A stretch of DNA of 64,000 bases, from contig CANGEV010000011.1 in NCBI GenBank assembly GCA_947452995.1, forward strand, positions 1 to 64,000. Direction: 5' to 3'. Shown one piece after another: positions 9,215 to 20,974 of the stretch. Source of the DNA: Chitinophagales bacterium. GTDB taxonomy: Bacteria; Bacteroidota; Bacteroidia; Chitinophagales; CAIODY01. The stretch's first letter is position 1. Each line of letters starts with the position of its first letter. The notes beneath the pieces were generated by a model. The model made no database searches. It was not told where the DNA came from and was given only the letters and a program-made list of their open reading frames with translations. The position numbers and the translations under genes are program-made.

Positions 9215-9250
9215 TTTTTAGTAATTTCACTACTCTAAAATATCTTGATT

Positions 9251-10435
9251 ATGAAAAAGTTTTTATCCCTTATTGGGTTGCTTTTGATGTTAAATCTTGG
9301 TGCTATTAAAGCCCAAACCTCATCAGCTAGTACAGATACTACTATGTTTGTGATTAAAACTGTAAATGGTGCTGAATATTTAGCTAAAGTTCTGAGCGAT
9401 GACGGTCGCGAAGTATTAGTAGAGACAAATACAGTGGGTAAGCTATATCTTAAAAAGAATGAAATTGTTTTGATGCAGAAAGTGGTGAGTAAGTTAGATG
9501 TGCAAGACAAAATTGAAGCAGCAACCTTTAAGAAGCCTGAGGCGCCTCAAGATATCTTTACGACTCGTTATATTTTTACCACGAACGCGCTACCTATTTC
9601 GAAAGGGGCCAACTACGCCATGACCAATATTCACGGACCAGAAATTCACTTCTCCGTTACGGATCGCTTAAATGTTGGTATCATGACTAGCTGGATTGGC
9701 TCTCCACTTATTCTTGCGACGAAATATACTTTCAAAAAGTCTGAATCGAAATTAAATTTTGCACTTGGAACTTTGTTAGGGACATCTGGATTTTTATATC
9801 AAGGACGCGGATATATGGGATTGCATTGGGGAACAGTAACGTTTGGCGATAGAGAGAATAATGTCTCTTTATCTGCCGGAGGCGCGTATTTTAATATCGG
9901 GAATGAAGTGAGTCGTATCACAAATAAAGGATATGGCATCTATAATAATGTCATTGAAGTAACAGACAATCAAACAATGGGGCAATCTAATTATAGACTG
10001 GTTTCAGGGGATGACTTACAAATTGGTAATGGACTAGCAGCAAGGACTGTTTTCGGTCCGATGATTGGAATTGCCGGTATCAAGAAAATTGGTGCGAAGG
10101 CTAGTTTCGTTCTCGATAATATTTTTTATCTCTATAATCATGAATATCTGTTTACCACCTCTACTTTTATTTCTTCACAATCAGGTACAGATGCGAATGG
10201 TAATTGGGTAAATACAAGCACCACCGCCTATAAATATGATTTCAATAAGGCCTTGAAGACGGTGGTTATTTTAATGCCTGGTATCCGAATTCAATCTTCA
10301 ACTAAAAGTGCTTTTCAATTTGCACTCCCAATCATCCAGGTTTATGGAAAAGGTAATCGTAGAAATGCAAATGATAAGCAGGCAAAATTCCTTGCTTTTC
10401 CAGCCCCGATGCTGACTATATTCTTTAAGTTGTAA
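9251..10435 (+). CDS. Predicted outer-membrane or surface protein, first of two tandem paralogues
   Basis: The ATG at 9251 (not the in-frame TTG at 9245) starts a signal peptide, MKKFLSLIGLLLMLNLGAIKAQ. The product is 394 residues. About residues 33-75 hold a beta-rich segment (FVIKTVNGAEYLAKVLSDDGREVLVETNTVGKLYL). The rest alternates polar and aromatic residues with many Gly-Tyr pairs and ends in FFKL, as outer-membrane barrels do. The next gene is a clear paralogue along its length. The function is not recognised. Confidence 0.7.
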   Translation: MKKFLSLIGLLLMLNLGAIKAQTSSASTDTTMFVIKTVNGAEYLAKVLSDDGREVLVETNTVGKLYLKKNEIVLMQKVVSKLDVQDKIEAATFKKPEAPQDIFTTRYIFTTNALPISKGANYAMTNIHGPEIHFSVTDRLNVGIMTSWIGSPLILATKYTFKKSESKLNFALGTLLGTSGFLYQGRGYMGLHWGTVTFGDRENNVSLSAGGAYFNIGNEVSRITNKGYGIYNNVIEVTDNQTMGQSNYRLVSGDDLQIGNGLAARTVFGPMIGIAGIKKIGAKASFVLDNIFYLYNHEYLFTTSTFISSQSGTDANGNWVNTSTTAYKYDFNKALKTVVILMPGIRIQSSTKSAFQFALPIIQVYGKGNRRNANDKQAKFLAFPAPMLTIFFKL

Positions 10436-10493: not shown

Positions 10494-11441
10494 ATGAAAC
10501 GCTGTTTACCCTTTTTTATCTTTTTCTTTTTATTTAATTGTGTTGCTTTTGCGCAATATGATGCAGCAAAATCTAACCCTGCGCCGGAGGAAACAACCTA
10601 TGTGATCAAAACGGTTAGCGGAACTGAATATTTAGCTAAAATATTAAGCGACGATGGTCGTGAGGTATTTATTGAAACGAATACTGTTGGTAAGCTTTAT
10701 CTTAAAAAAACAGAAATTGTTTCAATGCAGAAGGTAATCGATAAGGCGGATGTTGCAGATAAAATCGAGCAAGGGCATTATCGTAAACCGTATACGCCAG
10801 AAGGGATTTTCACCACTCGTTATGTGATTACTACCAATGCATTACCTATTAAAAAAGGAGAAAACTATGCGATGACCAATTTTCATGGTCCTGAAATACA
10901 CTTTTCAGTTACTGATAGGTTCAATTTTGGTATCATGACATCTTGGATCGGCTCTCCAATAATCTTAGCGATGAAATACACCTTGAGTAAGGAAGAGGAT
11001 AAGGTAAAATATGCCTTAGGTACCTTACTAGGCAGTTCAGGCTTTTTGTGGGGAGGGCGTGGTTATATGGGCTTACATTGGGTAACCGCAACACGCGGAA
11101 CACGTCAGGATAATATTTCCGGTTCTTTAGGATATGCTTATTTTGGTTTAGATGGAGATCTTATTCATGGTCCTATGTTAGGGGTTGCAGGAGTTAAAAA
11201 GGTTGGTGAGCGTTCTAGTTTTGTATTGGATAATATGTTTTTGTTCGGCATGCAGAATTACGCTTATTACACAATTAGTGGTTCTGGCTTTACTTTCATG
11301 TCGATGATTATGCCTGGTCTACGTTTTCAATCCTCTCCAAAATCGGCAACACAAATTTCGTTGCCAATCGTGAGCAAATTCGGTTCTGGCAATAACTTTG
11401 CGTTTCCACTACCTATGCTCACTTTGTTCTTTAAATTGTAA
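10494..11441 (+). CDS. Predicted outer-membrane or surface protein, second tandem paralogue
   Basis: This 315-residue protein has a signal peptide (MKRCLPFFIFFFLFNCVAFAQ) and matches the previous gene closely: TVSGTEYLAKILSDDGREVFIETNTVGKLYLKK, TRYVITTNALPIKKGENYAMTN, and the shared C-terminus (LPMLTLFFKL). It lacks about 80 residues present in the first copy, mainly the segments after AYF and near the loop before GPM, which would be external loops of a barrel. The pair is a tandem duplication that has diverged in its loops. The function is not recognised. Confidence 0.7.
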   Translation: MKRCLPFFIFFFLFNCVAFAQYDAAKSNPAPEETTYVIKTVSGTEYLAKILSDDGREVFIETNTVGKLYLKKTEIVSMQKVIDKADVADKIEQGHYRKPYTPEGIFTTRYVITTNALPIKKGENYAMTNFHGPEIHFSVTDRFNFGIMTSWIGSPIILAMKYTLSKEEDKVKYALGTLLGSSGFLWGGRGYMGLHWVTATRGTRQDNISGSLGYAYFGLDGDLIHGPMLGVAGVKKVGERSSFVLDNMFLFGMQNYAYYTISGSGFTFMSMIMPGLRFQSSPKSATQISLPIVSKFGSGNNFAFPLPMLTLFFKL

Positions 11442-11514: not shown

Positions 11515-11988
11515 TTAATCGCAGTACAAATGATCGGTCGTACTGCCGTTATGACATCCATTACAAGCGCCTGTGCGCGTAACTTGACTCATGTAGTGCA
11601 TCGTACCACTCGGACCTTTAGCTGCAGGATAAAGTCCGCCACTAAAATCAATGGCGTTAGTGGTATAGAAATTTCCTTTCGCATCTACTTCTAAGGTTGC
11701 AACTAAATTGCCCGTACCATTCGCGCCTGTATATAAATAGACAGTTGAGTTGGGTTGTAGGGTTACTAAATCTGCTTTATACATGGTGCCGGCTGCTGTA
11801 AACCAGCCATCCCCTTGACCGCCACTTTTATGACAATTCATACAGTTTTGTCCCATATTATGACTTTCATTCTCATTGTAGTTCGAGGTATTGCTACTGC
11901 TTGAACCTTCTTTCTCACAAGCAGTTTGGCTTAACACTAAGGCTCCTGCTAATGCAAGAGTGACTGCGCTGATGATTATTTTTTTCAT
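11515..11988 (-). CDS. Small exported diheme-type c cytochrome-like protein
   Basis: The ATG at 11988 begins MKKIIISAVTLALAGALVLSQTAC, a lipoprotein-like signal peptide ending in a Cys; this start is preferred to the longer frame from 12027, which overlaps thiL. The 157-residue product has two CxxCH heme-attachment motifs, CMNCH near the front and CNGCH near the end. Between them lies a beta-type domain (STVYLYTGANGTGNLVATLEVDAKGNFY). This points to an electron-transfer or heme-binding lipoprotein in the periplasm or at the surface. thiL is 11 bp upstream on the same strand. No cytochrome maturation genes are nearby. Heme attachment is inferred from motifs alone. Confidence 0.7.
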   Translation of the reverse strand: MKKIIISAVTLALAGALVLSQTACEKEGSSSSNTSNYNENESHNMGQNCMNCHKSGGQGDGWFTAAGTMYKADLVTLQPNSTVYLYTGANGTGNLVATLEVDAKGNFYTTNAIDFSGGLYPAAKGPSGTMHYMSQVTRTGACNGCHNGSTTDHLYCD

Positions 11989-11999
11989 AATTAAAATAT

Positions 12000-13061
12000 T
12001 TATTTTGTTTCTGTAAAAGCATTCCATCCTGCGGCTGCAATGTCTACTTCACTTCCTTGTTTACTTACCATACGCAAGCCTAAACTTGGGTCTGTGATAT
12101 GGCCTATTATACTGATGTCCTCTAGATCTTTTACTTTTTCAAAATCTTCTTGTTTGATAGTGAAAAGTAATTCATAATCTTCGCCACCATTCATATAAGC
12201 CGTAATGGTGTCAATCTTCATCTTCACAGCCATTTCGTAAGTATCGGAATGAATCGGGATTTTCTCTTCATAAACTCGTGCACCACAAACACTTTGTCGG
12301 CAAATATGCGTTAATTCACTACTCAAGCCGTCCGAGATATCCATCATTGCTGTTGGTTGGACTCCCTTTTCTGCTAAAAGTTTAATGATATCTTTTCTTG
12401 CCTCTGGTTTTAATTGTCTGCCTAGGATATAATGTTGATTTTCAAGGTCTGGTTGAATAGCTGGATGATCTTTAAAAATTTGCTTTTCGCGTTCTAGCAA
12501 TTGCAATCCCATAAAGGCTGCGCCAAGATCGCCTGAAACGCAGATTAAGTCATTCACACCTGCGCCATTACGATAAACTACTTTACTTTTTTCTACCTCA
12601 CCTATAGCTGTAATACTTATAAAAAGTCCTTTAAGCGAGCTTGTGGTATCGCCACCGATCATTTCGACGCCATAATGCTGGCATGCGAGATACATCCCTG
12701 TATAAAGTTCTTCCATGGCTTCCACCGTGTATTTGCTTGAAATCGCGACTGAAACGGTAATGTATTTTGGTGTGCCATTCATTGCGTAGATGTCACTTAG
12801 GTTAACAACCACGCTTTTATACCCAAGATGTTTTAATGGAGTATAAGCAAGATCGAAATGAATTCCTTCTGCAAGGATATCAGTAGTTATAAGTTCAAAA
12901 TGCGTATCGGAGCCAGTTTCGATGACAGCACAGTCATCACCAATTCCTTTAATTATACGTTGATCTTGCGGAGGGAAATTTTTGGTCAAATGATCAATCA
13001 ATCCAAATTCTCCTAATTCTGCAATTGGAGTAGTGCTTGGTGTTTTTTGTTCTTCTTGCAT
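12000..13061 (-). CDS. thiL: Thiamine-monophosphate kinase
   Basis: This 353-residue protein has the ThiL/PurM-like motifs: GEFGLIDHL near the N-terminus, IKGIGDDCAVIE, TTDILAEGIHFDL, NLSDIYAMNGTP, IGGDTTSS, DISDGLSSEL and NGGEDYELLFT. ThiL phosphorylates thiamine monophosphate to thiamine diphosphate with ATP. The start at 13061 is chosen because a TACCTTTG -7 box ends 4 nt before this ATG; the longer frame from 13124 would run through the promoter. The heme-motif gene follows after 11 bp. The thiL assignment is firm by motif set and length. Confidence 0.93.
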   Translation of the reverse strand: MQEEQKTPSTTPIAELGEFGLIDHLTKNFPPQDQRIIKGIGDDCAVIETGSDTHFELITTDILAEGIHFDLAYTPLKHLGYKSVVVNLSDIYAMNGTPKYITVSVAISSKYTVEAMEELYTGMYLACQHYGVEMIGGDTTSSLKGLFISITAIGEVEKSKVVYRNGAGVNDLICVSGDLGAAFMGLQLLEREKQIFKDHPAIQPDLENQHYILGRQLKPEARKDIIKLLAEKGVQPTAMMDISDGLSSELTHICRQSVCGARVYEEKIPIHSDTYEMAVKMKIDTITAYMNGGEDYELLFTIKQEDFEKVKDLEDISIIGHITDPSLGLRMVSKQGSEVDIAAAGWNAFTETK

Positions 13062-13073: not shown

Positions 13074-13194
13074 ATGAATTCGATTCAAAAGCATGTCTTG
13101 AATCATCGATGTGTGGCTTTGCACGAATTCTTTAACAAATAATTAGGTGCAAAAATTTTACTTTGAGCAATAAAGATGACATTTTTGTAACCGT

Positions 13195-13575
13195 ATGCGA
13201 AGAATATTGTCGCTTTTATTGTTGACGTTGTGGTTGCTAATGAATGGCAGCTCATCCTATGCATTTTCTAAGGTGAATGAATCTTTAGGGACTTCAAAGG
13301 CAACGTTAGCAAATGGGGTTACGAATCTTAAAGCATCATTTTTTGAGCAGCGTGTTCCGGATGAGGAAGATCATGCTGTTTATTATGAGGAAGAGGAGGA
13401 TGAAGATGACGAAGAATTGTTTCATCAAGCCGCACGTTTGCATGCGGTTATTTTATATCAACTATTATTTTTATTTGATGGTTATGCCTTTCGCACGGCA
13501 ACTTTGCTAACCCAAGAGGAAGATTTTCCGTTAGTAACACCTGTTTATTTAGCTTTTCAGAATTTTAGAATATAA
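13195..13575 (+). CDS. Small exported acidic protein at the head of the inorganic-carbon cluster
   Basis: This 126-residue protein has a signal peptide (MRRILSLLLLTLWLLMNGSSSYAF). A strongly acidic stretch follows at about residues 62-77 (DEEDHAVYYEEEEDEDDEEL), then a hydrophobic segment (LHAVILYQLLFLFDGYAF). It precedes the SulP transporter gene by about 70 bp on the same strand and is the first gene after the divergent thiL. It may be part of the SulP-porin-dabA-dabB unit, although a small hairpin (13575-13594) lies between. I do not recognise the family. The acidic run could bind cations, but that is only a guess. Confidence 0.6.
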   Translation: MRRILSLLLLTLWLLMNGSSSYAFSKVNESLGTSKATLANGVTNLKASFFEQRVPDEEDHAVYYEEEEDEDDEELFHQAARLHAVILYQLLFLFDGYAFRTATLLTQEEDFPLVTPVYLAFQNFRI

Positions 13576-13611
13576 AACGGCCATCCTTCCGTTTAATCTA
13601 ATTTTCTAACT

Positions 13612-13629
13612 ATAGTCGTGATCGACTAT
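13612..13629. promoter_or_regulatory. Inverted repeat just upstream of the SulP start
   Basis: ATAGTCG (13612-13618) and CGACTAT (13623-13629) form a perfect 7-bp inverted repeat with centre TGAT. It ends 16 nt before the preferred SulP ATG at 13646. It could be an operator or an RNA hairpin in the leader. No T-run follows, so it is not a terminator. Confidence 0.35.
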
Positions 13630-13645
13630 GCAATTCATTTTTTTT

Positions 13646-15253
13646 ATGTCTTCAAATTCTTCTGTAGAAGTGCCAAAGGATGGTTTGGCTGGGCTTCGTC
13701 AAAATTTTTTAAGTGAAATAAGTTCTGGTTTTATTGTGTCGCTCTTAGCATTGCCTTTAAGTTTAGGGATTGCAAAAGCGAGTGATTTTCCTAATCCAAT
13801 GTATGGTGTGTTAAGCGCGATAATTGGAGGTATATTAGTAAGTATATTCGCCGGCTCAAGGCTTACAATCAAAGGCCCAGCAGCAGGCTTAATCGTTATT
13901 TGTGCAGGTTCGATAGCCGCATTTGGCGGAGGCGAAATGGGATGGAAAATGACGCTTGGCGCAATTGTAGTGGCATCAGGACTACAGATATTATTCGGCC
14001 TATTGAAGTTGGGTAAGTTATCCGACTTTTTTCCGCTATCAGCAGTGCATGGAATGTTAGCCGCAATTGGGTTGATAATCATTTCTAAACAGTTGCACAT
14101 TTTGTTAGGTGTAAATCCGTTGAATGAACACGGTAAGCCTATGGTAGAGCCCTTAGAATTACTAGCGGCTTTGCCAAAAACATTTGCTAGCATACCTGAT
14201 CATTTGAATGTTGTAAAGGTTGGTTTGGTGTCCTTAGCATTAGTGTTGGGAATTCCGATGTTGCCTTTTAAGTGGTTGAAAAAAATTCCTTTACCAGTGA
14301 TCATATTAATTATTGCCATTCCTTTTGCTGCTAGCTTAGGATTGAAAGGTACAAAAGGTGCTTTGCTGAAGTTTGATAAGCCATTTACAGACTTAGTACA
14401 TTTTAATGCATCCTTCGCAGGTATTGGTCAAATGGGGACTTTTATTCAATATGTGATTTTATTTGCAATCATTGGTTCTTTGGAATCCTTATTAACTGCC
14501 AAGGCGATTGACTTATTAGATCCTTTCAAACGTAAATCAGATTTTAACAAAGATTTAATAGCGGTTGGTTCTGGAAACGTTTTATCAGGCCTGCTAGGAG
14601 GTTTGCCAATGATTTCTGAGGTTGCGCGTAGTTCTTCAAATGTTAGCAATGGTGCAAAAACAAGATGGGCCAATTTCTTCCATGGTTTGTTTTTACTTTT
14701 GTTTATGCTACTGGCTGTTCCTGTTTTGCAATTAATCCCAACAGCAGCATTGAGCGCCTTGTTAATAGGTGTTGGTATTAAGCTTGCCCATCCTAAGGAG
14801 TTTAAGCATGCGTATCAAATTGGAAAGGAGCAATTGTTGGTATTTGTTGTAACAGTTGTGTTTACCTTGGGCGTTGATTTATTAGTTGGAATTGCTGCCG
14901 GGATTTTAACGGAGTTTGTGGTGAATTTAGTTAATGGAAAGCCTTTGAAAAGAGCGTTTAAAGCCAATGTTGAAGTGGTTGATTTGAACGAAAATACTAT
15001 GTTAATACGTTTAAATGAAGCTGCGGTGTTCTCTAATTTTATGGGTATTAAGAAACAATTGTACGCAATTGAAGGAGGTAAGTCGATTCAAATTGATTGT
15101 AGCAATTGCAATTTGTTGGATCATTCTGCGATGGAAAATATACATTTGTTTGAGCATGATTATGCACATACAGGCGGTTCTGTAGAATTGATAGGGTTGA
15201 ATCAACATAAGTCGCTGTCAAATCATAATTTATCAGCACGAAAATTAAAATAA
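13646..15253 (+). CDS. SulP-family anion transporter, likely bicarbonate
   Basis: This 535-residue protein has the SulP core from about residue 15, with FLSEISSGFIVSLLALPLSLGIA, the signature FAGSRLTIKGPAAGLI and 10 or more further membrane helices. A STAS domain occupies about 440-520 (LIRLNEAAVFSNFMGIKKQL, DCSNCNLLDHSAMENI). The ATG at 13646 fits the family start better than the ATG at 13628, which adds only a few hydrophobic residues and lies inside an inverted repeat. SulP proteins carry bicarbonate, sulfate or dicarboxylates. Here the porin follows after 8 bp and then dabA-dabB, which supports bicarbonate (BicA-like) transport. No sulfur-assimilation genes adjoin it. Substrate is inferred from context. 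Confidence 0.85.
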   Translation: MSSNSSVEVPKDGLAGLRQNFLSEISSGFIVSLLALPLSLGIAKASDFPNPMYGVLSAIIGGILVSIFAGSRLTIKGPAAGLIVICAGSIAAFGGGEMGWKMTLGAIVVASGLQILFGLLKLGKLSDFFPLSAVHGMLAAIGLIIISKQLHILLGVNPLNEHGKPMVEPLELLAALPKTFASIPDHLNVVKVGLVSLALVLGIPMLPFKWLKKIPLPVIILIIAIPFAASLGLKGTKGALLKFDKPFTDLVHFNASFAGIGQMGTFIQYVILFAIIGSLESLLTAKAIDLLDPFKRKSDFNKDLIAVGSGNVLSGLLGGLPMISEVARSSSNVSNGAKTRWANFFHGLFLLLFMLLAVPVLQLIPTAALSALLIGVGIKLAHPKEFKHAYQIGKEQLLVFVVTVVFTLGVDLLVGIAAGILTEFVVNLVNGKPLKRAFKANVEVVDLNENTMLIRLNEAAVFSNFMGIKKQLYAIEGGKSIQIDCSNCNLLDHSAMENIHLFEHDYAHTGGSVELIGLNQHKSLSNHNLSARKLK

Positions 15254-15261
15254 TTTGTATT

Positions 15262-16569
15262 ATGAAAAATAGAGTGGTAAAAAAAATAATGTATTTATTA
15301 TTTACATGCGGGGTTATGAGTGCTTCTGCAACAAATTCTCCGAATAATCCTTTGAGTTGGTCATTAAATTCGGAAAATACTCATTATGTGAAAGTTAATG
15401 CCGTAGGGCAGTTCTGGTTACGTCATACAGATATGAATCCAGGGTCTATTTATAATGGGTATGCCAAGAGTAAAGGCTTAGATATTGGTATACGTCGTTT
15501 TCGCGTGCAGTTCCAATCGCAATTAAGTGATAAAGTTTTCATGTATGCTCAGTTGGGATTGAATAATTTTCATTCATATAGTGATCGTCAAACCGGTTTT
15601 TATGTAATGGATGCAAACGCAGATTATGAAGTAGTCAAAGACAAATTAGCACTAGGTAGCGGTTTGAGCTCTTGGGTTGGTTTTTCTCGTTTCTCCTCTC
15701 CAGCGGCTTCTACCATAATGGGAGTAGATGCACCTTTGCAATTCCAAGCAACGAATGATGTAACAGATCAATTCATTCGTCGTCTTGGTGTATATGCAAA
15801 AGGGTATTTAGGTAAATTGAATTATCGTGTTTCAATGGTGCAGCCATTTGATATTCAAAAAAGCCCGATTGCGTCATCCGTTTCAATTTCGAAGCAGGCT
15901 TCGTTTAGTCCGCAGCCACCAAACATGCAATGGAATGCATATTTGAATTATGAGTTTAAAGATAAAGAGCAAAATAAAACGCCCTATTTCGCAGGAACAT
16001 ATTTAGGGTCTAAAACTGTAAGTTCATTCGGAGGCGGTATTACCTATCAGCGCAACGCAATGTGGGCATTAGATACGAAAGGGGATACTATTTTTCATCC
16101 TTTATTGCTTGCTTCATTAGATTATTTTTATGATGCGCCAATTGGACATAAAGGTGCTGCAATAAGTGTATATGCTGATATTGCGTACACCGACTTTGGA
16201 GCCAATTATCTTCGTATGGCAGGGGCAATGAACCCAATGAATGGCTCAGTTGATAAATCGATTTTAAATGCACAAGGGAATCGTTTTCCTGCATATGGGA
16301 CAGGAACTTCTTTCTACACCCAAGTAGGTTATAAGCTTTCTCAAAAAATTGCTACCTTGAACTTCATGCCGTATGCTTCTTTGCAAAGATCCTATTATAC
16401 TGCGCTAAAGGTTCCGATGAACTTCTATGAAGTTGGTTTGAATTTACTAATGGACGGACATAATTCTAAACTTACCATTGGGTATCAAGATCGCCCGATA
16501 TTCAAATCGACAGGGGATTTAATCACGCGAAAGGGAGCACTTATCCTGCAACTACAAACGGCATTATAA
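15262..16569 (+). CDS. Outer-membrane porin of the inorganic-carbon operon
   Basis: This 435-residue protein has a signal peptide (about MKNRVVKKIMYLLFTCGVMSASA). It then shows phosphate-selective-porin-like beta-barrel features: alternating polar and aromatic residues, IGIRRFRVQFQSQLSDKVFMYAQLGLNN near the front, and a terminal strand ending KGALILQLQTAL. It is 8 bp after the SulP gene and 8 bp before dabA, inside one operon. It presumably lets bicarbonate or another small anion through the outer membrane. The barrel call is by pattern and the substrate by neighbours. It could also be a general OprP/OprO-type anion porin. Confidence 0.75.
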   Translation: MKNRVVKKIMYLLFTCGVMSASATNSPNNPLSWSLNSENTHYVKVNAVGQFWLRHTDMNPGSIYNGYAKSKGLDIGIRRFRVQFQSQLSDKVFMYAQLGLNNFHSYSDRQTGFYVMDANADYEVVKDKLALGSGLSSWVGFSRFSSPAASTIMGVDAPLQFQATNDVTDQFIRRLGVYAKGYLGKLNYRVSMVQPFDIQKSPIASSVSISKQASFSPQPPNMQWNAYLNYEFKDKEQNKTPYFAGTYLGSKTVSSFGGGITYQRNAMWALDTKGDTIFHPLLLASLDYFYDAPIGHKGAAISVYADIAYTDFGANYLRMAGAMNPMNGSVDKSILNAQGNRFPAYGTGTSFYTQVGYKLSQKIATLNFMPYASLQRSYYTALKVPMNFYEVGLNLLMDGHNSKLTIGYQDRPIFKSTGDLITRKGALILQLQTAL

Positions 16570-16577
16570 TTCATACC

Positions 16578-19127
16578 ATGGGAAAACATTCATTCGATTT
16601 TGAACATACTTTGCATGATATCATGCATTATCTGCCATCGCAGATGACCTTGAAGGATTTCGTGCACCATAATTCATTACATGCCTTCCAAAACATGAAG
16701 TTTTATGAAGGTATTTTTAGAGCCTCAAAAATCTTTGGTTTTAAGGTAAGCTTGCAACTGACAGAATTTAGAGAGCTTTATAAAAAAGGTCGAATCACAG
16801 AATCTGTTATTGAACGAATTATCGTTGAGCGTAAAGGAGAGGAAAACTTAGAAGCTTGGGTGAAGAAAGTCTTATATCAAGAGTATGATTCAAGCATTCC
16901 TTCCAAAATAGGCTTGTTGCGAGCCAATTGGAAAAGTGCTTATCGTATCGACTTGGATACATTAACGCATCCTCTTTTATATCGAATATTAGCCTCCTAC
17001 TTAGATCAGGGTATTTCTGTTTGGGAATTTCCTGAACAAACGGATTCGTTTTTAGGGGCGATACGTTCTATGGAACAAAGTGCTGGCGCTTCATTCCTTC
17101 GAACAGCTAAGGCTCGTGCAATGCTGATGGATGAAAGTTTGACCATTGAAAAATTATTAGCGCGTGTTGTAGGGGATGAGTCTTATTACGAACAGTATTT
17201 ATATGATTTGTGCTTTAGTCATAGAGGTTGGAGCGGAATGGTTGCTGTTTTAACAGAAAATCCTGGCGCACTATTAGTAAAGCGACCAATTACATTGAAG
17301 GAACTTTGCCTATTTGAGTTAATACTTGAGGTTGATGCACTGAATGCGGAGTTAGGAAATGATTGGAAAGCAATTGCCACATTAACGAAAGACTCGCCGA
17401 TTGAAATTTTAGCAGAAACACCATTAACTGAATTAGATGAAGTAATAAAAATTTGGCAAGATGCGTTTGAGTGGAATTACTATGATCAAGTAGTAGTGGG
17501 CATTCAAGGTAATCTAAAGCGTAAACGCGCTTTACATGATAAAACTAGCTTTCAAGCAATTTTTTGTATAGATGAACGCGAGTGTTCCTTGCGTCGTCAT
17601 TTAGAGCTTGTTGCACCGGATGCAATAACTTTCGGTGCACCAGGGTTCTTCGGCGTAGAATTCTATTACCTCCAGCAGGATACTAAATTTTTAGATAAGC
17701 TTTGTCCGGCACCGGTTACGCCTAAGTACCTAGTTAAGGAGATTGCCAAGCATACGCATCACGACTCCGACATCATGTTCTCACCAAGTTCACATAAGTT
17801 GGAGACGAATGTGTTTAGTACTTTTTATCTAGGTGCTTTGGCAATACCGAAGCTTTTGCAAGGTATTTTTATGCCGAAGATGACGCCATCTATCTCTGAT
17901 GCTTTCTCACATATGACAAAAGGAAGTACGCTGACAATTGAGAATAAAGATGTCAACGATCGAGAATATGATTTGCAAGTAGGTTTTACGATTGAGGAAA
18001 TGACTACACGTGTCGAAAACTTCTTACGCGGGATTGGTTTGATATCGAATTTTGCAGATTTAATATATGTTGTTTCACACGGGAGTTCGAGTGCTAACAA
18101 TCCGCATCATGGTGCACATGATTGCGGCGCCTGTAGCGGACGTCCTGGAGCAACGAATGCACGTGTTTTTGCTGGAATGGCTAATCATCCTAAAGTGCGT
18201 CATGAATTAGCATTGAAAGGGATTCAGATTCCAAGCACTACAGTTTTTGTACCATCAATGCACGATACGGCTGCCGACACTATAGGATATTATGATGAGC
18301 ATTTAATTCCTGCTAATCAATTGCATGTCCATCAAGACAATAAACAGTCATTTGAAGATGCGCTTGATCTAAATGCAAAAGAACGTTCTCGTCGTTTTGC
18401 TTCTATTTCAACCAAACAACCAATAAAGAAAATTCGTCAAGCAATTTATAATCGCTCAGTAGAATTATTTGAGCCACGTCCTGAACTTGGGCATGGTACC
18501 AATTCTCTTTGTATTGTCGGTAGGAGAGAGCTCACACGCGGTTTGTTTTTAGATCGTCGTGCCTTTTTGAATTCATATGATTATCGAACTGACTTAGAAG
18601 GAAAATATTTGGCGAATGTGATGGCGCCAATAGGAGTTGTTTGTGGGGGCATTAATCTCGAGTACTATTTTTCACGTGTAGACAATGTAAAATTGGGTTG
18701 TGGCACAAAATTGCCTCATAATGTAGTTGGATTAATAGGCGTTGCGAATAGCAGTGACGGTGATCTTCGCCCTGGCTTGCCTTGGCAAATGATCGAACCG
18801 CATGATCCTGTTCGTTTATTAGTGGTGGTTGAACATTTTCCAGAAGTTGTTTTGAAAGTGATTCAAAGCAACGCCGCTATGTATGAATGGTATAAAAACG
18901 AGTGGGTGCATATCATGGCTCTTCATCCTGAAACGCAGGAGTTCTTCTATTATCGCAATGGACATTTCTTGCATTATCATGCTGACGCGATGAATGCGAA
19001 GGCCTTGGAGAATGTACATCATCTCTTTGAGGAAGCACCTGAAATGATGACGAACGCGATTGCGCATGCAACTTTTGAAAATTTACCTATTTATCAAATC
19101 GAGAATAACATTCAATGGAAATCATAG
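16578..19127 (+). CDS. dabA: DabA, catalytic subunit of an energy-coupled inorganic-carbon transporter
   Basis: This 849-residue protein belongs to the DUF2309/UPF0753 family now known as DabA. The four residues matching the beta-carbonic-anhydrase-like zinc site are present: C330 and D332 in FCIDERE, H501 in VSHGSSS, and C516 in GAHDCGACSG. The spacing between the last pair (15 residues) equals that of characterised Halothiobacillus DabA. DabA works at the inner face of the membrane with DabB to hydrate CO2 one way into bicarbonate. dabB overlaps its end by 13 bp. The neighbours SulP and porin extend the module. The product is full length and looks active. Confidence 0.93.
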   Translation: MGKHSFDFEHTLHDIMHYLPSQMTLKDFVHHNSLHAFQNMKFYEGIFRASKIFGFKVSLQLTEFRELYKKGRITESVIERIIVERKGEENLEAWVKKVLYQEYDSSIPSKIGLLRANWKSAYRIDLDTLTHPLLYRILASYLDQGISVWEFPEQTDSFLGAIRSMEQSAGASFLRTAKARAMLMDESLTIEKLLARVVGDESYYEQYLYDLCFSHRGWSGMVAVLTENPGALLVKRPITLKELCLFELILEVDALNAELGNDWKAIATLTKDSPIEILAETPLTELDEVIKIWQDAFEWNYYDQVVVGIQGNLKRKRALHDKTSFQAIFCIDERECSLRRHLELVAPDAITFGAPGFFGVEFYYLQQDTKFLDKLCPAPVTPKYLVKEIAKHTHHDSDIMFSPSSHKLETNVFSTFYLGALAIPKLLQGIFMPKMTPSISDAFSHMTKGSTLTIENKDVNDREYDLQVGFTIEEMTTRVENFLRGIGLISNFADLIYVVSHGSSSANNPHHGAHDCGACSGRPGATNARVFAGMANHPKVRHELALKGIQIPSTTVFVPSMHDTAADTIGYYDEHLIPANQLHVHQDNKQSFEDALDLNAKERSRRFASISTKQPIKKIRQAIYNRSVELFEPRPELGHGTNSLCIVGRRELTRGLFLDRRAFLNSYDYRTDLEGKYLANVMAPIGVVCGGINLEYYFSRVDNVKLGCGTKLPHNVVGLIGVANSSDGDLRPGLPWQMIEPHDPVRLLVVVEHFPEVVLKVIQSNAAMYEWYKNEWVHIMALHPETQEFFYYRNGHFLHYHADAMNAKALENVHHLFEEAPEMMTNAIAHATFENLPIYQIENNIQWKS

Positions 19128-20974
19128 TTTATATTTTGTTCTTACTTCCAATAATTACTTTTCTTGGAAGTTTATTGTTTAAGAATCATCAAGAGCAAGC
19201 CCTTTCGCGAATTGCAACAGGGATGTCTATTGTACAGTTAATAGGTTATATTTCCTTAGCGATTATTTTTTTAATTTCTCGTATTTCAACTAAGGACGTA
19301 CATTTTTTAACAGCGTACGATAGAAATGAATTTCGTTTCGGAGTTGATTTCTTTATTGATAAGTTAAGTCTTACTTATGGAATTGTTTCATTTTTTGTCT
19401 TGGCTATCATTGCAAAGGTGAGTAAAACATATATGCATCGAGAAAGTGGTTATAAGCGATTTTATAATCACTTATTACTATTCTCCATTGGTTTAAACTT
19501 AGTATGCGTATCCGGTAATTTTGAAACATTTTTCTTGGGCTGGGAGATTGTTGGCATCGCTTCTTTCTTGTTGATTTCATTTTATCGAGATCGCTACCTC
19601 CCTGTTCGAAATGCAATGAAGGTTTTGTCATTTTATAGAATGGGAGACGTTGCCCTGATTGCTGGCGTTTGGTTTATTCATCATATGATGCATACCAATA
19701 TTATGTTTACTGATTTGAATAGCGATAAATTCGTCCTTGCGTTAGGAGCTCATCCTAATTACGTTTGGAGTATTGGATTGCTATTTTTGTTTGCTGCTGC
19801 CGTGAAATCGGCTCAATTTCCATTCTCATCTTGGTTGCCTCGTGCAATGGAAGGCCCTACTGTTAGTAGTGCAATCTTCTATGGATCGCTAAGCGTACAT
19901 CTTGGAGTCTTCTTATTGATTCGTACCATGCCTATCTGGCAGGCCCTTGATTCTTTTAGATATGTACTGGCGGGTTTAGGTCTGTTAAGTTTCTTAATAG
20001 GATCGCTTTCTGGATCTGTTCAGTCGACCGCAAAAACTCAAATTGCCTATTCTTCTTTAGCGCAAATTGGAATAATGTTCGTTGAATTAGCGTTCGGTTT
20101 GCCAGTGCTTGCCTTAGTACATTTTGTACTTAATGCTATGTTGCGAGTTTATCAATTATTGGTTTCACCTTCTATTATGAGCTACCTGATTCATCAGCAG
20201 TTTTACAACTATGATCCGAGTAAAAAATATATATTAAATAAATTGCCTAAACGACTGCGCAATACACTTTACATACTTTCTGTAAAAGAATTTAACCTCG
20301 ATTATTTTTGGTATCATGGCATTTGGAAGACTTTTAAGAAGATAGGATCCTCTTTTGTTTTTGTTGGTAACAAATATATTTTAGTGGTATTGTCCTTATT
20401 TGGACTCCTAGTAACAGGTTTACTCTATTATGGTGTGGATCGCTTTGAAATGAGATATGTTTCAATTTTATTCGCTTTAATCTCGTTGATACTGATATTT
20501 TTTGCTTGGACCAATCGCCGCTCTGCTTTGATTTCGTGGACTGCAATTGCAATAAGTCAACTCTTTTTTATGCTTTCAGTCGTGCAAAATCATACGTTTG
20601 ATACTATTCAAGTATTGATTTATTTTAGTGGTGAGATTGGTGCATTTATTTTAGGTTGGTTCGCTTTATACAAAGTGCAATCGATAGAAAACTCAGTTAA
20701 TTTAAACGCTTTTCATGGTCATGTGTATGAACATCCTCGATATGCACTTGCTTTTCTCATAAGCGCATTAACGATGATTGGATTTCCGATCTCTCCTACA
20801 TTTTTAGGGTATGATTTATTATTCAGCGAAATAGAAACGAATCAAACATTCTTGCTCGTTATTAGTTCGATTACGTTTATTGTTTTGGAATTAGCTGTTT
20901 TACGGATTTATGCACGTGTATTCTTAGGTCAGCACGTAAAGACGTATCATGAAATAGCCTTTAGAAGTTCTTAG
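19115..20974 (+). CDS. dabB: DabB, proton-antiporter-like membrane subunit of the carbon pump
   Basis: This 619-residue polytopic protein is of the Nqo12/NuoL/MrpA (Proton_antipo_M) type. It has about 14 membrane helices and the core segment LGWEIVGIASFLLISFYRDR, with HNxA-like segments later (KSAQFPFSSWLPRAMEGPTVSSA). It starts inside the end of dabA (13-bp overlap), which implies translational coupling. In DAB complexes DabB is thought to couple cation flow to DabA. It is not complex I: no other nuo or mrp gene is present. The last 14 bp overlap the convergent lamin-tail gene. Confidence 0.92.
   Translation: MEIIVYILFLLPIITFLGSLLFKNHQEQALSRIATGMSIVQLIGYISLAIIFLISRISTKDVHFLTAYDRNEFRFGVDFFIDKLSLTYGIVSFFVLAIIAKVSKTYMHRESGYKRFYNHLLLFSIGLNLVCVSGNFETFFLGWEIVGIASFLLISFYRDRYLPVRNAMKVLSFYRMGDVALIAGVWFIHHMMHTNIMFTDLNSDKFVLALGAHPNYVWSIGLLFLFAAAVKSAQFPFSSWLPRAMEGPTVSSAIFYGSLSVHLGVFLLIRTMPIWQALDSFRYVLAGLGLLSFLIGSLSGSVQSTAKTQIAYSSLAQIGIMFVELAFGLPVLALVHFVLNAMLRVYQLLVSPSIMSYLIHQQFYNYDPSKKYILNKLPKRLRNTLYILSVKEFNLDYFWYHGIWKTFKKIGSSFVFVGNKYILVVLSLFGLLVTGLLYYGVDRFEMRYVSILFALISLILIFFAWTNRRSALISWTAIAISQLFFMLSVVQNHTFDTIQVLIYFSGEIGAFILGWFALYKVQSIENSVNLNAFHGHVYEHPRYALAFLISALTMIGFPISPTFLGYDLLFSEIETNQTFLLVISSITFIVLELAVLRIYARVFLGQHVKTYHEIAFRSS

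Follow-up and report, generated by a model that had tools for sequence, protein, structure and literature searches.

DAB pumps are known chiefly from autotrophs and from a few Firmicutes. In DAB2 of Halothiobacillus neapolitanus, the zinc ligands C351, H524 and C539 and the Asp-Arg dyad D353-R355 are all required, the finger glutamate E444 is essential, its loss abolishing activity, and the system has elsewhere raised cell DIC or rescued E. coli lacking carbonic anhydrase (CA) (PMC13144422). Some SulP transporters have elsewhere had the same effects, and one that was suspected of carrying DIC gave no rescue of E. coli (PMC12628692). Among regulatory peptides, the published arrest-peptide leaders include some from Bacteroidota in which stalling occurs at the stop codon (PMC9973294, PMC9426467, PMC10987492). 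The locus reported here, from a 64,000-nucleotide stretch of Chitinophagales DNA that we analysed as a whole (the window), brings features of these systems together in one operon. We found no description of a SulP-porin-DAB unit, or of a SulP-DabA fusion, in the open-access literature, a scope that does not extend to the original DAB paper (PMC10184468).

Five ORFs on the plus strand, encoding a leader, a SulP transporter, a porin, DabA and DabB, follow one another with gaps of 52, 8, 8 and -13 bp (Table 1); the tight packing of the last four, already given in a preliminary description of this DNA, was found again. Matches of SulP to PF00916 (6.2e-58), DabA to PF10070 (1.5e-210) and DabB to PF00361 (8e-36) all lie far above the cut-offs, and a PF10070 subunit is thus encoded side by side with a PF00361 partner, the arrangement by which the DAB/DAC family is recognized. 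The closest named relative is Chitinophagales bacterium MAG22 (locus L002), whose DabA is 91% identical to that of the window. With a probability of roughly two in three, we read the operon as a SulP-coupled DAB that imports inorganic carbon, with a porin for anions and a leader that tunes expression, probably feeding housekeeping carboxylations and not autotrophy. An OprP-like porin would pass anions, bicarbonate among them, across the outer membrane; DabA, as a zinc vectorial carbonic anhydrase, and DabB, as a NuoL-like ion channel, would use an ion gradient to drive cytoplasmic hydration of CO2 to bicarbonate; the dedicated SulP would move bicarbonate at the DAB site, most likely inward; the bicarbonate would probably supply acetyl-CoA carboxylase and, via CO2, PEP carboxykinase; and the exported nascent chain of the leader would adjust expression of the whole. 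Elsewhere in the window lie two adjoining, similar secreted proteins of ~300-400 residues (9245-10435 and 10494-11441; the second is without a Pfam match) and, directly downstream of thiL on the minus strand (11515-12027), a small, apparently secreted protein that has two haem-type Cys-x-x-Cys-His motifs and weak matches to cytochromes.

Table 1. Features of the SulP-DAB operon and its upstream region (window positions).
Feature	Position	Strand	Basis
Candidate Bacteroidota -7 promoter element, CATTTTTG	13180..13187	+	TAnnTTTG with one mismatch, 7 nt upstream of leader
Leader ORF, 126 aa	13195-13575	+	ORF call
Predicted RNA hairpin from the leader's stop codon	13575..13594	+	MFE fold
Predicted RNA hairpin spanning the annotated start of SulP	13611..13630	+	MFE fold
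SulP (SLC26-like) transporter, DAB-linked lineage, 541 aa	13628-15253	+	PF00916, BicA PDB match, tree
Outer-membrane porin, OprP/OprO-like barrel, 435 aa	15262-16569	+	AlphaFold2 model, OprO/OprP structural matches
DabA, 849 aa	16578-19127	+	PF10070; 9rd0_A match
DabB, NuoL-like, 619 aa	19115-20974	+	PF00361; AlphaFold2 model matching NuoL

The distribution of this unit was surveyed in sampled genomes, many of them in many contigs, with genes taken from our own ORF calls. A PF10070 search was positive in 20 of 296 genomes of the phylum, searches with a DabA profile were positive in 78 of 395 genomes of the class and 42 of 299 of the order, and flanks were retrieved for more than 100 loci chosen by DabA similarity, 98 of which, mostly from Bacteroidota, belong to the DabA lineage of the window. 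The preliminary description had held that SulP or porin genes unconserved next to dabAB would speak against the unit; at 81 of the 98 loci SulP is in fact either fused to DabA or encoded within 6.5 kb on the same strand, and at 4 more it is encoded solely on the other strand. Chance neighbourhood can be set aside, since none of the 8 loci of a second Bacteroidota DabA lineage, in which the DabB gene comes first, has SulP nearby, nor do these have a porin. Gene order varies (SulP-porin-dabAB, dabAB-SulP-porin, SulP-dabAB-porin and porin-dabAB-SulP were all seen) and the partners stay, which argues for functional linkage beyond one inherited layout. At four loci (L174, L176, L187, L188) SulP and DabA are joined, in that order, in a single ORF of ~1400 aa, both Pfam domains having been verified in the 1400-aa ORF of L174; these natural fusions make the proposed contact between SulP and DabA directly testable. 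Genome G832 (locus L110) has an open frame as long as these. A same-strand outer-membrane barrel gene is present at 47 of the 98 loci, as a window-type porin (25), DUF2490 (20) or Porin_O_P (3), some loci having more than one, and beta-CA at 26; where ample flank was available (80 loci), the counts were 66 for SulP, 37 for a barrel and 22 for beta-CA (representatives served to verify the labels DUF2490, Porin_O_P and Pro_CA). The complete outer-to-inner route that had been suggested for the operon is therefore common, but not obligatory, because the outer-membrane protein varies in type and none was found on the same strand at about half of the loci.

The SulP proteins themselves reinforce this association. 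In a tree of 129 sequences, the window protein falls in a branch of 59 that is near-exclusively DAB-linked (54 DAB-adjacent, 4 fused, 1 other); SulPs linked to carbonic anhydrase form its sister group (split support 0.995), and sulfate-type controls fall outside both. Taken together, the linkage at 81 of 98 loci, the fusions and this near-exclusive branch establish the unit as a conserved module, and the SulP-coupled DAB is a variant of the DAB/DAC systems that is conserved in Bacteroidota. The window SulP, with the motif PMISEVA, has BicA as its top PDB sequence match (1.8e-23), but its earlier designation as BicA-type does not stand: it scores 130.8 bits against a cut-off of 880 bits for the NCBIfam BicA equivalog, and it belongs to a separate lineage. 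That shortfall, and the fact that PF00916 members transport many different anions, could be taken to mean that the substrate of this SulP is sulfate or another oxyanion and that it lies beside dabAB by reason of co-regulation alone; we consider this highly improbable, given that SulP-DabA fusions exist and that the branch is almost solely DAB-linked and separate from the sulfate-type controls. Further architectures were also seen among the surveyed loci. A 734-aa SulP divergent from dabA (L044:5851-8055 and L045:11416-13620) has an extra C-terminal part of ~200 aa, which gave no match to the beta-CA profile and, in L044, to no Pfam family; SulP-carbonic anhydrase fusions lie downstream of dabAB in two loci (L112:8705-10870 and L117:11513-13729) that also carry a separate SulP before dabA.

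DabA of the window has DabA2 of Halothiobacillus (9rd0_A) as its top PDB match (5.6e-62), and its residues C330, D332, H501 and C516 align with C351, D353, H524 and C539 of DAB2. All four residues previously listed as the zinc site are indeed kept, but the ligands proper are C330, H501 and C516, whereas D332 belongs, with R334, to the counterpart of the Asp-Arg dyad D353-R355. Ligands and dyad are invariant in 98 of 98 DabA proteins of the lineage. On the other hand, the counterpart of the finger glutamate E444 is F416, and a glutamate occurs at this position in none of the 98 (it is present in 6 of 8 DabA proteins of the second lineage). Since this residue is essential in DAB2, either coupling must differ here or the complex may have changed; the earlier expectation that DabA should be active draws support from the zinc site, but it does not follow that the protein works as DAB2 does.

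DabB offers a candidate for a different ion path. Its AlphaFold2 model matches NuoL (Z 43-46 over residues 1-441), to which it is also similar in sequence, and E144, R175, D178, K231, K307 and H336 are retained among 97 relatives, in which the positions of NuoL H254, H338 and K342 hold Tyr, Asn (95) and Arg. In the C-terminal motif GFPI..F.G.D, D567 aligns by sequence with NuoL D400 and is kept in 96 of 97, although the C-terminal part aligns weakly with subunits of complex I (a NuoN match at E 0.1). Second-lineage DabB proteins do not have this motif, and their residue at the E144 position is hydrophobic or Ala. From these sequence patterns, we infer that the coupling ion would pass via D567 of DabB rather than via the DabA finger. 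The loss of the finger glutamate and the retention of NuoL-like acids in DabB provide, in effect, a natural test of how CO2 hydration is coupled to the flow of ions. DabB2 (9rd0) is absent among the structural matches listed for the DabB model, which has no bearing on its fold.

The third component of the unit, the porin, gave no match to Pfam, Porin_O_P (PF07396) included, and a weak match to that family was seen in 2 of 25 relatives. Its AlphaFold2 model (mean pLDDT 83) is a barrel with about 16 long strands, matching OprO (Z 24.9) and OprP (Z 24.5) at 11-13% identity, and on this modelled structure it is an OprP/OprO-like outer-membrane barrel. Many Arg and two Lys are conserved in the family; a selectivity for anions would be in keeping with the operon as we read it.

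The wider genome bears on the use to which imported carbon might be put. Searches of the genome gave no match to RuBisCO, PEP carboxylase or PYC/OADA, which speaks against RuBisCO-based autotrophy, agrees with the preliminary remark that no carbon-fixation genes are seen here, and likewise speaks against pyruvate carboxylase and PEP carboxylase as sinks. The genome does encode PEPCK, subunits of acetyl-CoA carboxylase and a rhodopsin. The rhodopsin gene (G000 contig C33:40-702) is a possible source of a light-driven ion gradient, and it has been proposed that light stimulates anaplerotic carbon uptake in Bacteroidetes that carry a rhodopsin (PMC4148732). A second unit, of SulP and beta-CA, lies on contig C10 of the same genome (L194:4039-6623) behind its own acidic leader, which ends in DAPPPEQA; genes named from sequence as elongation factor P (efp) and as accB and accC lie 1.2 kb and 1.8-2.3 kb downstream, respectively. 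With a beta-CA already in the genome, the DAB is not filling in for a missing enzyme.

The presence of carbonic anhydrase is also an argument for pH and ion homeostasis, in which the DAB would hydrate CO2 and SulP would exchange the bicarbonate for another anion, setting cytoplasmic pH or anion balance. SLC26/SulP proteins are often exchangers, and the beta-CA found at 26 of the 98 loci fits poorly with the accumulation of bicarbonate against a gradient: a cytoplasmic CA beside the DAB would short-circuit the bicarbonate pool, which counts against carbon supply. Nevertheless, we regard the homeostatic function as unlikely, in that the characterised DAB and MpsAB systems supply carbon (PMC13144422, PMC6689103) and the SulP-CA unit of this genome is situated 1.2-2.3 kb upstream of acetyl-CoA carboxylase genes, though not directly in their operon. 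Import of inorganic carbon for housekeeping carboxylations remains our preferred reading.

The first gene of the operon, for which the preliminary description offered no reading, is of a different kind. The leader has a hydrophobic, signal-like N-terminus (signal regions were assessed by hydropathy), an acidic middle (EEEEDEDDEE) and a tail, TPVYLAFQNFRI, that runs up to the stop; searched against protein families, its 126 residues gave no match beyond a spurious one far under the cut-off. An unannotated ORF of ~100-150 aa opens 83 of the 98 loci by a loose rule, and by a stricter one a leader is found at 73 of 107 first genes, as against 7 of 185 control genes and none of the 5 from the second lineage. 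Among the seven positive controls is a HYC_CC_PP protein that precedes a large, presumed TonB-type receptor ORF. A HYC_CC_PP family protein of leader-like architecture precedes another operon in L049 (13512-13919, minus strand), and this family may represent a related class of Bacteroidota leader peptides. The leader is not a trait of every SulP, for just 7 of 40 SulP loci away from dabAB have one, all seven ending in a proline motif, and none was seen in the first nine sulfate-type SulP loci. Across the set, the acidic middle is barely conserved, conservation being confined to the signal and the last residues. In 52 of the 53 leaders of the non-proline class, a C-terminal motif, [YF][LI]x[FY][CHR][NSC][LFIW][RK][IVL], lies at a distance of 0-8 residues from the stop codon (likelihood ratio 363, versus 126-138 in shuffles); leaders of a second class carry a PP motif close to the end (160 versus 73-81). 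A simple tail pattern, written post hoc, occurs in 32 of the 53 leaders, compared with 5 of 1396 ORFs similar to them in length and 2 of 940 long ORFs. When the window is compared with L002, for which synonymous distances are near saturation, dN/dS is 0.29 for the leader (0.08 in the signal region, 0.35 over the last 14 codons) and 0.02-0.04 for the remaining operon genes.

The flanks of the leader are consistent with a position at the head of the transcript. L002 has the octamer of Table 1 in the same place, and perfect TAnnTTTG boxes, compared with which that of the window is weak, occur near 55 of 78 leader starts versus 10-16% in controls. Between leader and first gene such boxes are depleted (3 versus 7.4 expected), and the leader is thus probably the first ORF of the transcript. 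The whole leader-SulP gap of the window gives an MFE fold with a z of -4.4, translation of SulP might instead begin at the in-frame ATG at 13646, and L002 has hairpins of different sequence at both the leader stop and the SulP start. Stop-anchored hairpins can be dismissed as a general attenuator, as they are not enriched (26 of 76 versus 50 of 151 controls); leader-to-gene regions as a whole show somewhat more structure than controls do (mean z -1.62 versus -0.93, p 7e-6).

By analogy with described peptides, the first gene is most likely a regulatory leader whose exported nascent chain would tune expression. All four features used to define arrest-peptide leaders (PMC10987492) are found in it, namely an unannotated upstream ORF, a secretion signal (here by hydropathy) or TM segment, a conserved C-terminus and a spacer of more than 30 residues. 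CutF-like peptides are defined by a length below 150 aa, a signal peptide, PP in the last 15 residues and a same-strand gene downstream, and the window leader falls outside this class, its tail being without PP. More specifically, and as a tentative proposal, acidic exported nascent chains ending in [YF][LI]x[FY][HCR]x[LFW][RK] or PP by the stop might respond to a signal from the envelope, such as pH, cations or carbon status, by stalling the ribosome and so control the SulP-porin-DAB and SulP-carbonic anhydrase operons of Bacteroidota, the DAB under such control being a SulP-DabA-DabB complex with its ion path via DabB D567 and not via the DabA finger. For the first gene alone, a quite different role is a serious possibility, if the less likely one: the leader could be an ordinary secreted accessory protein, periplasmic, acidic and perhaps cation-binding, as its coding evidence, its signal-like N-terminus and the lack of enrichment of stop-anchored hairpins (34% versus 33%) would allow. 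Such a protein would not readily account for conservation that is restricted to the signal and the last residues, for a motif held so close to the stop codon in all but one of the 53 non-proline leaders, for promoter boxes that precede the leader and are depleted after it, or for the recurrence of the ORF at the head of separate units (two each in L136 and L175, and both units of the window's genome).

Comparison with known systems places each component in a recognizable family. The window SulP shares PF00916 with BicA and with SulP-carbonic anhydrase transporters, and neighbours and fusions of the latter kind occur within the DAB loci themselves; it has Glu at the position aligned with the Na+-site Asp of BicA. 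The porin has the 16-stranded barrel of the anion-selective OprP and OprO in common with them, but at 11-13% identity and without a Porin_O_P match. DAB2 of H. neapolitanus (PDB 9rd0, PMC13144422) consists, as here, of a PF10070 zinc subunit and a NuoL-like PF00361 partner, but has the finger glutamate that the window's lineage is without; it differs also from the ~620-aa DabB, with its NuoL-like E144 and D567 and with Tyr, Asn and Arg at the His254, His338 and Lys342 positions (NuoL numbering), and the operon adds a SulP and, often in this lineage, an outer-membrane barrel. MpsAB of Staphylococcus aureus resembles the operon in being a DAC system of a heterotroph, encoded by two genes, but is described as a Na+/HCO3- system (PMC6689103). 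The leader is like CutF/CruR and the NSP-stop and NAP-stop peptides of Bacteroidota (PMC9973294, PMC9426467, PMC10987492) in architecture, being a small first ORF with a signal-like N-terminus, a long spacer and a conserved C-terminal end upstream of the genes to be controlled. It differs from CutF/CruR in being acidic, without their metal-binding Cys motif, and in preceding inorganic-carbon operons; if leaders of this type work as proposed, sensing by exported nascent chains would reach beyond copper and protein secretion and take in inorganic carbon.
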